From a virus: a stretch of DNA of 64,000 nucleotides. Positions within the stretch are counted from its first letter, which is position 1. Every line of letters begins with the position of its first letter. The notes beneath the pieces were generated by a model. The model saw only the letters and a list, made by a program, of their open reading frames with translations. It was not told where the DNA came from and did not search any database. The position numbers and the translations under genes are program-made. This document shows positions 55,739-61,190 of the stretch, piece after piece. The DNA lies in IMG/VR virus record IMGVR_UViG_3300032229_000533, positions 1-64,000 of that record; one strand, 5' to 3'.

Positions 55739-56149
55739 TTATTTTACAACAAATAGTTTATTTTTTGCATTTATCATATCAACTTCTTGTGCACGATAAA
55801 CAGGTTCTTCTGTATCCTTAAATACAAATGTATCGTGTTTATATGGATTATATGTTACAACTTTATCTGATGATGGTGATGGCATTTCATCACAAGGATA
55901 TTCACAATAGTCTAATAATTTTCCAATTACAAATGCGTGAACATTTTTTGATTTTTCAGAACGAACCCTCTCTTTACCACCTTTCCTAACTCTAAATTCA
56001 ACATCACCCAATTTAACATAGTCTGCATGCATAATAACTTTATTATCGTAGGTAACAGAAAAAGTATGTTTGTGTAAATTATAATACACCATAACTTTTT
56101 TACCGATAAATAAAGAATCAAATTGTGATTCGGTGATTACAACTTTCAT
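55739..56149 (-). CDS. Unknown protein in neck gene cluster
   Basis: 136 residues, basic, with a His-containing N-terminal half (YYNLHKHTFSVTYDNKVIMH) and a Cys pair (YCEYPCDEM). The opening MKVVITESQFDSLF reads like a small N-terminal tag helix. It starts with a one-base overlap after the neck gene and ends 4 nt before the gp15-like gene, so it is co-translated with them. A head-tail connection role is only inferred. No enzyme motif is visible. Confidence 0.55.
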   Translation of the reverse strand: MKVVITESQFDSLFIGKKVMVYYNLHKHTFSVTYDNKVIMHADYVKLGDVEFRVRKGGKERVRSEKSKNVHAFVIGKLLDYCEYPCDEMPSPSSDKVVTYNPYKHDTFVFKDTEEPVYRAQEVDMINAKNKLFVVK

Positions 56150-56718: not shown

Positions 56719-58470
56719 ATGGAAATAAGTTTGGAGTCAAAAGCGATGGCGATTCTTGAGACATATGATGGTGGTAATAACTATCTTTTAGAATTAAAAC
56801 GTAAATCACAGATTAACAAAAAATTCTATCCTACAAGAAGCCAATCGGAATATATTATATCATTCCACGACAAGCAACCAAAGGTTGCCAAGAAGTGGGT
56901 GATTCTTGATGCCTATTTTGCTCAGAAATTGGCTGACGATAAACTATACACAGAAATTCCACAAAAAGTTTGGGTTGAAAAGTTATTGGCGGATAAAGAA
57001 AAGGCGTATCACATTTGGGGTAAAGTTTTTGATGGTGAAGAGTTTCATGATTTTTGGTTACCAAAAGCTGCAATTATAAAAGACAACTCTGTTAAAGATG
57101 TTGTAATTGATTATTCAAAATACTCTCATCGTCCACCACTTGAACATCAAAAAGAAGCAATACAAAAATTAGTTGAAAATAAAAAGTTTATCTTGGCGGA
57201 TGATATGGGTCTTGGTAAAACAACTTCAACAATTATTGCGGCATTAGAAGCAGGTTCTAAAAAGACTTTAATTATTTGTCCAGCAACTTTAAAAATTAAC
57301 TGGAAACGTGAAATTGAAAACTATTCAGATAAAACCGTATTCATTGCCGAAAGTAAAAATTTTAGTACCGAAGCAGATTTTGTTATCATAAACTACGATA
57401 TTATTAAAAACTTCCATGACACTAAAAAGAAAGATGAGTCGCAAATTCTTGCTTCCAATTTTGATTTGGTCATTGTTGATGAGGCACACTATATTAAGAA
57501 TGCTACAGCACAAAGAACAAAATTAATTAACGACATTGTTAAAAAAACCGATAGATTGTGGTTGTTAACGGGAACACCAATGACATCACGACCAATTGAT
57601 TATTTCAATCTATTAAGTTTAATTGATTCACCTGTTGCAAAGAATTGGATGGCATATGCAATTAGATATTGTCAGGGTTATCAATTTAATGTTGGTGGGA
57701 GAAAGGTTTGGAACGTAACTGGTGCTTCAAACTTAGAGGAATTAAGAGACCGAACATTAGGGTTAACTTTAAGAAGATTAAAAGAAAATGTTCTTGACCT
57801 ACCAGACAAGATTATTACACCAGTCTACCTTAGACTAAAATCAAAACAATATGAAGAGGTAATGGGTGAATACTACGATTGGTACGACAAAAACCCTGAA
57901 GAGTCAAAATCACTTACAGTTCAATTCTCAAAACTAACAAAAGTTAGACAAATTATTGCAGACGAAAAAATTGCTCAAACAATTGAACTTGCTGAAAATA
58001 TTTTAGAACAAGATAAAAAAGTCATTATATTCTGTAACTTTACCGATTCATTAAATAAAATTACCGAACATTTTGGAAAGGCTGCGGTTAAACTTGACGG
58101 CTCAATGTCTAAACCTGAACGTCAACATTCAGTTGACCAATTTCAAGACAACCCAAAAGTTAAAGTTTTTGTTGGTAATATTAAAGCCGCAGGAGTCGGG
58201 ATTACATTAACCTCTGCGGAAGCGGTTATCATGAATGACCTGTCATTTTTACCATCAGACCACGCACAAGCAGAAGACCGAGCATATCGTTACGGTCAAA
58301 AAAATAATGTGTTAGTCTATTATCCAATCTTTGAAAATACAATAGAAGGAATTATATACGATATCCTAAACAGTAAAAAACAAGTGATTGCCACGGTGAT
58401 GGGTGATAATCATCATCCAGCCGACGCAGCAGAAGAAATTCTACAAAGAATTAATAATCTGCGAAATTAG
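56719..58470 (+). CDS. SNF2-family DNA translocase/helicase (SMARCAL1-like)
   Basis: 583 residues. The first ~135 residues form an N-terminal domain. The two RecA lobes of an SF2/SNF2 motor follow: LADDMGLGKTT (160-169), VIVDEAHYIKN (DEAH 254-257), LLTGTPMTSRP (TGTP 284-287), IIFCNFTDSLNKI, AAGVGITLTSAE (490-501) and motif VI QAEDRAYRYGQ (R521, R524). This set is closest to SMARCAL1/ZRANB3-type enzymes that re-anneal and remodel forks, so it may take the place of T4 UvsW. It is the first gene of a short plus-strand set, 39 nt from the divergent neck gene. All motifs are intact. Exact substrate is inferred. Confidence 0.88.
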   Translation: MEISLESKAMAILETYDGGNNYLLELKRKSQINKKFYPTRSQSEYIISFHDKQPKVAKKWVILDAYFAQKLADDKLYTEIPQKVWVEKLLADKEKAYHIWGKVFDGEEFHDFWLPKAAIIKDNSVKDVVIDYSKYSHRPPLEHQKEAIQKLVENKKFILADDMGLGKTTSTIIAALEAGSKKTLIICPATLKINWKREIENYSDKTVFIAESKNFSTEADFVIINYDIIKNFHDTKKKDESQILASNFDLVIVDEAHYIKNATAQRTKLINDIVKKTDRLWLLTGTPMTSRPIDYFNLLSLIDSPVAKNWMAYAIRYCQGYQFNVGGRKVWNVTGASNLEELRDRTLGLTLRRLKENVLDLPDKIITPVYLRLKSKQYEEVMGEYYDWYDKNPEESKSLTVQFSKLTKVRQIIADEKIAQTIELAENILEQDKKVIIFCNFTDSLNKITEHFGKAAVKLDGSMSKPERQHSVDQFQDNPKVKVFVGNIKAAGVGITLTSAEAVIMNDLSFLPSDHAQAEDRAYRYGQKNNVLVYYPIFENTIEGIIYDILNSKKQVIATVMGDNHHPADAAEEILQRINNLRN

Positions 58471-58478
58471 GCAACTAC

Positions 58479-58505
58479 GGATTATTTATATATAACGGAT
58501 AATCC
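58479..58505 (+). promoter_or_regulatory. Inverted repeat with TATTTATA before SOD-fusion gene
   Basis: GGATTAT (58479-58485) and ATAATCC (58499-58505) form a 7-bp stem around a loop holding TTATATATAA. The TATTTATA motif (58483-58490) overlaps it and lies 21 nt before the ATG. It could be an operator or promoter. Confidence 0.4.
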
Positions 58506-58511
58506 AAAATT

Positions 58512-60044
58512 ATGAAAAAAACACAAGAGAAAATCCAACAACTAGAAACACAAATACTTGAAAACCACGTTAACCAAGAAAAAGAGTTGTTGATTACCGA
58601 AATGAAAAAAATAGGAATAGAAAAATTACCTTACTCCTATACAGCCCTCAAACAGTTTATTGACCCAGAGACGATGAACTTTCATTATAATAAACATTAT
58701 AAAGGGTACGTGGATAAACTAAACGACGCATTGTCTAAAAAGAAATACGGAGATTTAGATTTAGAAAAAATTATTAAGACCATAAGTCGTTTTGATAAGA
58801 CAATAAGAAACAACGCAGGTGGGGCATTTAACCACGCATTGTTTTGGAACATGTTAACCCCCGACCCAAAAAAATTAGATGGTGAACTTTATAAAAAGAT
58901 AACCAAACAGTGGGGGACTTTCACAAACTTTAAAAAAGAATTTGAAAAACAAGCCAAAGACCGTTTTGGTTCAGGTTGGGTGTGGTTAGTATTAACATCA
59001 AGAAACACATTAAAAATTATGTCAACTCCGAACCAAGACAATCCATTAATGAATGTGATTGAAAATGGTGGGTTTCCTTTACTTGGATTAGATTTGTGGG
59101 AACACGCTTATTATCTAAAGTATAGAAACAAAAGAGACGAATATATCACAAACTTTTGGAAAGTTGTTAATTGGGATTTTGTAACCAAGATGTATGAAAT
59201 GAGAGTTGAGACAAAACTTACCGAATCAACAAAGATGAAACAAATCTTAAGTGAAGGTAAATCTGAAATGTGTTCTCAATCTGAAAATGAATTCTACAGA
59301 ATGTTGTTTAACGTAAATTCAGATGTTAAATGGACTTACATGAATGGTATCAACAAAATCATGAAAGATGTATTTCCTGAAAATTATATCACAAACCCTG
59401 AAAACGACCAATTACCTGGTGTTTACAATCTTGAGGGTCCTGGTAGGTCAGTTATTAATAAGTTAAACACAAACTATACTTCTTTTTGTATCTTATTAAA
59501 AGATTTGAATCAGGTTATTACAAAAATTCCTGGCAAAGAACCAATTAAGTTTTTAGGAAAAACACCCGCTGAACAGAAAAAAGAAGTTGTAAGATTTGTT
59601 AAAGCAATTGACCACTTTAAGTATAGAATCTTTGATAAAGATAGTTCAACTCTTCACAACTTATTAAGAACTTTAACTGAAAAAGATAAGGCAGGTTCTA
59701 AAAGAGAAGAAATAACCGCATCAATTCTTAAACGACATTTTGGTAAAGATGTTAAAATTGAGGTTATTGGTGAGCTAGGTAATAAAAAAGATGCAATTCA
59801 AGGGGTCGATTTGGAAATAACAAAAGATGACCAAGTTTTAACTGGTCAAATTAAACCATTTAGAACCATGATGATTGGTGAAGATGGTATTACTTTAGAA
59901 GGAACCGCAAGTGTTAAAATTTATAACACAGATTTAATGATTTTCCAAAAAGGTAAGAATGTTTTAATTTTTAATAAAAAACCAAAAATTGTTAGAGGTA
60001 ATTTTGTGTTCCCATTAGATTCACTAATGTATAATATACAATAA
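58512..60044 (+). CDS. Mn-type superoxide dismutase fused to predicted PD-(D/E)XK-like nuclease
   Basis: 510 residues in two parts. Residues ~37-225 are an iron/manganese superoxide dismutase with the full metal site: H58 (MNFHYNKHYKGYV), H108 (NNAGGAFNHALFW), D194 and H198 (LDLWEHAYYLKY). G104 and Q175 (STPNQDNP) are the features of the manganese form. Residues ~255-510 form a second domain; at ~396-480 a helix (SKREEITASILKRH) precedes GVDLEI (D433, E435) and TGQIKPF (Q446, K448), a D-x(n)-QxK layout as in Mrr-type nucleases, then DLMIFQKGKNVLIF. The first ~36 residues are a coiled extension. SOD would remove superoxide; the nuclease prediction is inferred from motif layout only. It follows the SNF2 gene by 41 nt. 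Confidence 0.8.
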   Translation: MKKTQEKIQQLETQILENHVNQEKELLITEMKKIGIEKLPYSYTALKQFIDPETMNFHYNKHYKGYVDKLNDALSKKKYGDLDLEKIIKTISRFDKTIRNNAGGAFNHALFWNMLTPDPKKLDGELYKKITKQWGTFTNFKKEFEKQAKDRFGSGWVWLVLTSRNTLKIMSTPNQDNPLMNVIENGGFPLLGLDLWEHAYYLKYRNKRDEYITNFWKVVNWDFVTKMYEMRVETKLTESTKMKQILSEGKSEMCSQSENEFYRMLFNVNSDVKWTYMNGINKIMKDVFPENYITNPENDQLPGVYNLEGPGRSVINKLNTNYTSFCILLKDLNQVITKIPGKEPIKFLGKTPAEQKKEVVRFVKAIDHFKYRIFDKDSSTLHNLLRTLTEKDKAGSKREEITASILKRHFGKDVKIEVIGELGNKKDAIQGVDLEITKDDQVLTGQIKPFRTMMIGEDGITLEGTASVKIYNTDLMIFQKGKNVLIFNKKPKIVRGNFVFPLDSLMYNIQ

Positions 60045-60068: not shown

Positions 60069-61190
60069 ATGGCAGTTATTCCAGAACCAGAAAGGTCAAA
60101 AATTTATACAAGAGTTAAGCACTTATTGGGGGCACCAATTAGAAGTGTTGAAATTGAAGATGAAATGATGGATTCTTTAATGGAACTTTCAATTCAAGAC
60201 TATGAACAATACATTTTAAATTGGTTGATTGATAGTCAATGGGTTAACTTAGTTAACTTGAATATGACAGAAAAGTCTGTATCAAGAGCATTGATTACAA
60301 GAACGATGGATTTTGAACAACAATTTTCATATTCATATTCAAAAATTGTAGGACTTCAAGCCGAAGGTCCTTGGGTATTAAAGAAAGATTATATCATTCT
60401 TGAAGAAAACAAACAAAACTACGAGATACCAGCTGGTCGTGAAATTAATGAAGTATTATGGTTTAGCAATCAACCTATTACCGCATTTGGTATGGGTGGT
60501 ATTGGTGGATTTGGTGGTGTAGGTCTTGGTGCCAACGAAGCGGGTTTTGCTCAAATGGGATACCAAGGTTCTTATTTTATGATGTCAGGTTTTGACTATC
60601 TAATAAGAATGCAAGAAGCGAATATCTTAAACAGAATCCTTGGTGGTTCTTTAACTTATAGAATTACCGCATTACCTGACGGTAAAAAAGATTTACAATT
60701 ATACAATGCGCCTGGTAATAGTTTTAACTGGGGAAATTATAGTCAATATGTTGGTAAGGCTGTTTGGTATTGGTATTACGATGTAACACCTGATAGTAGA
60801 GCTGACTGTTTAAAAAATAATCCTGATGTAATTAAATCACCAAATGATGTTCCATTAGAAGAACTTACTTGGTCTGACTTAAACGTACCTGCACAACAAT
60901 GGGTTAGAAGATGGTTTACCGCTTATGTTAAAGAAACATTAGGTAGAGTTAGAGGAAAATATAGTGGAAACTTAAAAGTTCCCGATTCAGAATTAACCAT
61001 GGACTACACAAGTTTGTTGACCGAAGGTAAGGATGAAAAAACAAAATTAATAGAAGAACTTACAGGTGCTGAAGGTTGGTTAACAAGATTAAGACCTGAG
61101 AAAGTTATGGAACGAGAAGCCTTAATTGCCGAGAACTTAAATAAACAAATGAAGTTCCGAGCAATGCCTCGTCAAATATATGTAATTTAA
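60069..61190 (+). CDS. 13: Neck protein gp13-like
   Basis: 373 residues (T4 gp13 is 309). The opening IYTRVKHLLGAPIRSVEIED plus a helical segment (MMDSLMELSIQDYEQYILNW) matches the first domain of gp13 neck proteins, and the C-terminal part has VPAQQWVRRWFTAYVKETLG followed by a helical tail, typical of that family. A Gly/Met-rich loop (~140-175, FGMGGIGGFGGVGLGA) is inserted. gp13 seals the filled head and accepts the tail. It is on the plus strand and split from the other neck genes by the SNF2 and SOD-fusion genes. Confidence 0.65.
   Translation: MAVIPEPERSKIYTRVKHLLGAPIRSVEIEDEMMDSLMELSIQDYEQYILNWLIDSQWVNLVNLNMTEKSVSRALITRTMDFEQQFSYSYSKIVGLQAEGPWVLKKDYIILEENKQNYEIPAGREINEVLWFSNQPITAFGMGGIGGFGGVGLGANEAGFAQMGYQGSYFMMSGFDYLIRMQEANILNRILGGSLTYRITALPDGKKDLQLYNAPGNSFNWGNYSQYVGKAVWYWYYDVTPDSRADCLKNNPDVIKSPNDVPLEELTWSDLNVPAQQWVRRWFTAYVKETLGRVRGKYSGNLKVPDSELTMDYTSLLTEGKDEKTKLIEELTGAEGWLTRLRPEKVMEREALIAENLNKQMKFRAMPRQIYVI

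Follow-up and report, generated by a model that had tools for sequence, protein, structure and literature searches.

One gene of the window, the whole stretch of 64,000 nucleotides that was analysed, encodes a Mn-type superoxide dismutase (SOD) and a putative nuclease in one frame. The source record is a 182-kb virus contig (G000) with a T4-type gp23 capsid protein, a terminase and a prohead protease. Judged from its relatives, the SOD-nuclease is a real, old fusion and is a conserved gene in T4-like aquatic phages that form a large, uncultured group. The explanation favoured here, tentatively and at slightly under an even chance, is that of a late polyprotein that would be packaged like the internal proteins of T4, cut into SOD and nuclease, and possibly ejected with the DNA.

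The fused gene and its relatives

The gene and its two conserved neighbours are the following.

58512-60044, + strand: SOD-nuclease gene, whole, 510 aa; a single open frame, the same in all complete relatives examined.
56719-58470, + strand: SNF2/UvsW-like helicase, conserved upstream neighbour (Pfam SNF2-rel_dom, 3.1e-29; PHROG DNA helicase, 4e-115).
60069-61190, + strand: neck protein (head-tail adaptor Ad2-like), conserved downstream neighbour (phrog_211, 8.4e-10).

The open reading frame starts with ATG and has no internal stop, in line with the earlier note, which had described it as continuous through the SOD and the C-terminal domain. That note had also proposed a search for the same two-domain order in other phages: relatives are encoded in 561 IMG/VR stretches (IMG/VR scan), and both halves lie in one frame in each complete copy examined, with identities to the window protein down to 47%. 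The alignment set consists of 33 non-redundant proteins (<92% identity), the most distant of which is 47% identical to the window protein. Across the examined loci, the SOD halves are 58-99% identical and the C-terminal halves 36-92% identical to those of the window. Only one irregular copy was seen (L224), which has a single frameshift. Both domains are under purifying selection (dN/dS: SOD, 0.02-0.09; C-terminal half, 0.03-0.15). An assembly error joining two separate genes, raised beforehand as the finding that would undo the fusion, is ruled out because the same continuous frame is found in relatives on dozens of contigs, which come from different samples and were assembled separately; its probability is taken as negligible.

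One member of the same two-domain family is already deposited: UniProt A0A6J5L953 (uncultured Caudovirales phage, 501 aa), which is 36% identical to the window protein over the C-terminal domain and 49% identical to the relative L076 over 479 columns. It differs in that its name, 'superoxide dismutase', covers its SOD half only. The C-terminal domain without SOD was seen only in copies cut by contig ends, in a search seeded from the SOD-nuclease family that distant stand-alone relatives would escape. No sequence match to this domain was found elsewhere in 50,697 phage records (tblastn), in a profile search of three related phage records or, for a bacterial source, in a pattern-based, non-exhaustive scan of GTDB genomes. 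Searches of phage records found no cultured phage carrying the SOD-nuclease, and the literature searched holds no description of such a fusion.

In relatives with flanking sequence, the order is UvsW-like helicase, SOD-nuclease, neck protein, small protein, followed, where the contigs reach, by a DNA polymerase on the opposite strand. The SOD-nuclease gene is therefore positionally fixed and is not a roaming accessory. The best relatives of the terminase and of the neck protein are found in Flavobacterium, Microcystis and uncultured phages; a host among freshwater Bacteroidota would be a guess. The same synteny was looked for in Microcystis phage Mel-JY01 and Flavobacterium phage immuto and was rejected: their neck gene follows PhoH-type genes, not a SOD gene.

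The superoxide dismutase and nuclease-like halves

58617-59189, + strand: Mn-type superoxide dismutase domain, aa 36-226 (Pfam, PDB Mn-SODs, invariant metal ligands).
59256-59645, + strand: helical middle region, aa 249-378; invariant C254 and C326; motif GRSxxNxLNTNYTxFC (alignment).
59646-60041, + strand: PD-(D/E)XK nuclease-like core, aa 379-510 (AlphaFold model, Foldseek PDB matches, invariant residues).
59706-59708, 59808-59810 and 59847-59855, + strand: core residues E399, D433 and Q446-x-K448, respectively; invariant.

Both Pfam SOD domains are present, in order and above cut-off (PF00081 Sod_Fe_N, 1.5e-22; PF02777 Sod_Fe_C, 3.8e-40), and the closest PDB relatives of this half are Mn-SODs (E about 1e-57). 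The metal ligands H58, H108, D194 and H198, which the earlier note had placed correctly in what it called a complete Mn-type SOD, are invariant in the 33 relatives, as are the gateway tyrosine Y66, the active-site glutamine Q175 and the dimer-interface residues E197 and Y201. Q175 lies within NQDNP, which we take to indicate a Mn-type enzyme. With its ligands and second-shell residues invariant, the SOD half looks active. The complete fold, the metal ligands and the second-shell residues are shared with bacterial Mn-SODs (PF00081/PF02777; PDB 6gsc, 5a9g), whereas the phage version is extended at both ends and joined to the nuclease-like domain. Stand-alone SODs of phages (Pseudomonas PA5oct group, Vibrio phage 2.275.O) are likewise of the Fe/Mn type but are about 27% identical, over the SOD domain only, the C-terminal domain being unmatched. 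The best GTDB match of the SOD is from a Fluviicola MAG (51%), in a scan with phage-biased patterns from which no origin can be inferred. Ordinary SODs are also matched, at 42-48% identity, by several records labelled 'phage' that are short or lack annotation (e.g. OR850395, OR845917); these have the look of contaminating host DNA.

In the second half, nothing reaches the assignment threshold in Pfam, PHROG or PADLOC; the PADLOC search for a defence family was negative. Its commonest weak match is DUF6602 (13 of the 33 members; best E 0.0017, below the cut-off of that family), and no relative with a solved structure was found by sequence. AlphaFold gives a confident model for residues 228-510 (pLDDT 89.7, pTM 0.83). 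This model places E399 within a long helix, D433 directly before a strand and the QxK on the next strand; it departs from the PD-(D/E)XK layout by a beta hairpin at the expected place of the second helix. In Foldseek searches against the PDB, the top match is I-Ssp6803I (prob 0.99, E 0.015), followed by archaeal Hjc (prob 0.87-0.91). PD-(D/E)XK enzymes are the only high-probability matches (E 0.015-0.13), the other low-E matches being of low probability. Against the viral library, many small proteins are matched, some of them named PD(D/E)XK or Holliday junction resolvase. E399, D427, D433, Q446 and K448 are invariant in the 33 relatives, a Gln replacing the second acid of the PD-(D/E)XK active-site set. 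The fold statistics are modest, yet they agree among themselves and fit the invariant residues, and they support a PD-(D/E)XK nuclease-like fold, i.e. a putative nuclease. The nuclease-like layout D433...QxK448 that had been proposed from the letters alone is thus supported by the fold matches, in the comparison of an AlphaFold model with PD-(D/E)XK structures that the note had suggested, and by the invariant E..D..QxK set; a second half lacking a nuclease fold, which had been named as a refuting outcome, is not what the model gave. This set being invariant, the C-terminal half also looks active.

The phage domain shares with I-Ssp6803I and archaeal Hjc the fold over the last ~120 residues and the E..D..QxK set. 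It differs from them by the lack of any sequence match and by the addition of a helical region of ~130 aa, with its own invariant motif, and of the SOD. The predicted structure of BFVD A0A8D9CCA0 (uncultured marine phage, 1113 aa) contains the C-terminal fold (TM 0.80 of query, 18% identity), an indication that proteins of a different architecture carry this domain too.

Hjc and other resolvases being among the best fold matches, the nuclease could be a late Holliday-junction or debranching enzyme that would take over, before packaging, the role of T4 gp49 and act with the UvsW-like helicase, the SOD being a dimeriser or an accessory. The helicase is indeed the fixed upstream neighbour, and the contig yielded no RuvC, no RusA and no confident Endonuclease VII. 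In these whole-contig searches the RuvC, RusA and Endonuclease VII profiles do not match the SOD-nuclease gene either, and the full Pfam scan is also without a resolvase match. However, the contig is possibly incomplete and its HNH proteins could fill the role; the substrate is not predictable from similarity to the PD-(D/E)XK fold, and the seemingly active SOD and the border sites described below are left unexplained. This role is considered improbable.

Border sites, upstream motif and packaging

58483-58489, + strand: TATTTAT, promoter-like motif (enriched 7-mer), 29 bases upstream of the start codon.
58512-58601, + strand: variable N-terminal segment, aa 1-30, candidate capsid-targeting propeptide ending with I28-T-E30.
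59196-59255, + strand: disordered linker, aa 229-248, with two conserved [ILMV]-x-E sites (pLDDT <50; alignment).
59217-59225 and 59247-59255, + strand: codons of the linker sites ending with E238 and E248, respectively (alignment).

The linker sites E238 and E248 are found in 33/33 relatives, P2 being variable, and the predicted disorder (pLDDT <50) ends exactly at residue 248. E30 is kept in 29 of the 31 relatives that have a residue there, with P3 nearly always I or L and the middle residue again variable. The only other conserved [ILMV]-x-E triad in the whole protein is LWE197, which belongs to the SOD itself. When the columns of the border regions were shuffled, at least three such triads were obtained in 0.9% of the trials. 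In T4, the prohead protease gp21 cleaves after L/I-X-E, and internal proteins reach the head via short N-terminal propeptides (PMC9026906; PMC3012670). A prohead protease of the gp21 family is encoded by the same genome as the SOD-nuclease (Peptidase_S77, 1.1e-22), and the gp23 of this phage has an invariant I-N-E60, followed by A, at the expected place. Because conserved [IL]xE sites flank both domains, the head may be where the two halves are cut apart, a possibility that the earlier note had missed.

Across the proteins of this phage, the N-terminal 50 residues show a 2.4-fold enrichment of [IL]xE[AG] that the controls lack, and proteins with N-terminal sites of the [IL]xE type more often have an upstream TATTTAT (p=0.005). 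Many unrelated proteins start with such stretches (ITESQ, INESQL, LTESD); their genes include window 55739-56149 (-), L351:16678-17295 (+), L348:8077-8541 (+) and L349:17864-19030 (+), and one protein of this set is a M23 peptidase. Together they may make up a capsid-targeted group.

Among the 7-mers upstream of the genes of this phage, TATTTAT has the highest enrichment (16-fold): it lies within 60 bases upstream of 45 of the 162 predicted genes in G000, for 2.7 expected. It precedes the SOD-nuclease in 31/33 relatives; for the remaining two, the true start codon probably lies upstream of the one chosen. The motif is found before the scaffold, protease, portal and neck genes but not before the ribonucleotide reductase, DnaB and gp32 genes; the gp23 gene of this phage is without the exact motif. 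TATTTAT is also the reverse complement of the TATAAATA of T4. From the identity of the genes that carry it, the motif is likely to be a late promoter. Since the motif is shared with virion genes, the SOD-nuclease is probably expressed late with them.

The simplest joint reading of the linker disorder, the border sites, the protease and the motif is a head-packaged polyprotein. The late-expressed gene would yield a two-enzyme precursor, probably directed into the prohead by its N-terminal segment. The gp21-type serine protease would cut after the Glu of [I/L]-x-E, at E30 before the SOD and at E238 and E248 in the linker, freeing the Mn-SOD and the PD-(D/E)XK nuclease within the head, as for T4 internal proteins. 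Once freed, the SOD would clear superoxide from the surroundings of the DNA, in the head or just after ejection; the nuclease would be kept inactive until ejection and, in the new host, would act on defence elements or on the DNA of the host or of rivals. Packaging, cleavage, ejection, the activity of the enzymes and the target of the nuclease are what we infer here; the domains, the invariant catalytic residues, the border triads, the upstream motif, the synteny and the gp21-family protease are observed.

The T4 internal proteins IPI-III and Alt, which are capsid-targeted, processed by gp21 and ejected, are the closest model. The phage protein has in common with them an N-terminal extension and sites of the L/I-x-E type, and it too is encoded by a T4-like phage that has a gp21-family protease. 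It differs by its much larger size and by carrying two enzymes per chain with sites between them, and it is a candidate cargo. Several features argue against the polyprotein reading. [IL]xE is a short, common pattern, and amphipathic helices often contain it. The conservation around E248 extends over a longer string, E-G-x-S-x-x-C, which could be structural. The site before the SOD is missing in 2/31 relatives. The N-terminal segment of 30 aa is unlike other N-terminal modules of this phage and exceeds the propeptides of T4 internal proteins, which have 10-19 aa. Lastly, the late-promoter role of TATTTAT is itself deduced from the genes carrying the motif.

Both domains always share a chain, and the intact protein could work as one machine, in which the SOD dimer would pair two nuclease domains and guard or gate them, with C254 and C326 as a thiol switch. 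The invariance of E197 and Y201 at the dimer interface is consistent with this, as is that of C254 and C326, which are the sole cysteines in 27/33 proteins; the best fold match, I-Ssp6803I, functions as a tetramer (PMC12205087). If the protein stays whole, the C254/C326 pair would be a candidate redox switch. Against an intact machine stand the disordered linker with its conserved protease-type sites and the fact that a contact between the domains is seen in no model (the whole-protein model, pLDDT 69, is too weak to judge such contacts). Such a machine is judged rather unlikely.

Possible antioxidant genes and significance

Two other proteins of this phage share N-termini of the [IL]xE type that recur in their families: a Dps-like DUF5856 protein and a PPK2 polyphosphate kinase. 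The DUF5856 protein (L350:2738-3205 (-); G000 140234-140704) has a weak match to the Dps-type HP-NAP (6e-4). In its family, the N-terminus varies strongly, and nearly every member has a [LIM]-x-E site close to it, in most cases with Q or A as the next residue, a pattern that would suit head-packaged proteins. The N-terminus of PPK2 (L352:3437-4531 (-); G000 177933-179030) has a LLxEIxRIxxVMGIxxE pattern that is conserved in phage relatives; the gene 156616-157698 opens with a stretch like it (ILTEIRRISELMSINE) and is elsewhere unlike PPK2. A virion antioxidant kit can be imagined, in which the Mn-SOD cut from its precursor, the Dps-like protein and PPK2 would shield the DNA in the head from oxidants produced by light in surface waters, the nuclease being co-delivered with the genome; this extension is put forward as a doubtful one. 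The region L350:2160-13134 carries 24 tRNA genes covering most amino acids, with interspersed HNH proteins.

The SOD-nuclease is a positionally fixed gene in a widespread phage clade of which no cultured member was found. If the reading of the cut sites is true, these phages package whole enzymes as polyprotein cargo, pairing an antioxidant with a nuclease. An N-terminal [IL]xE together with an upstream TATTTAT would then be a simple sequence rule with which to predict, for uncultured T4-like phages, the set of proteins that are ejected.
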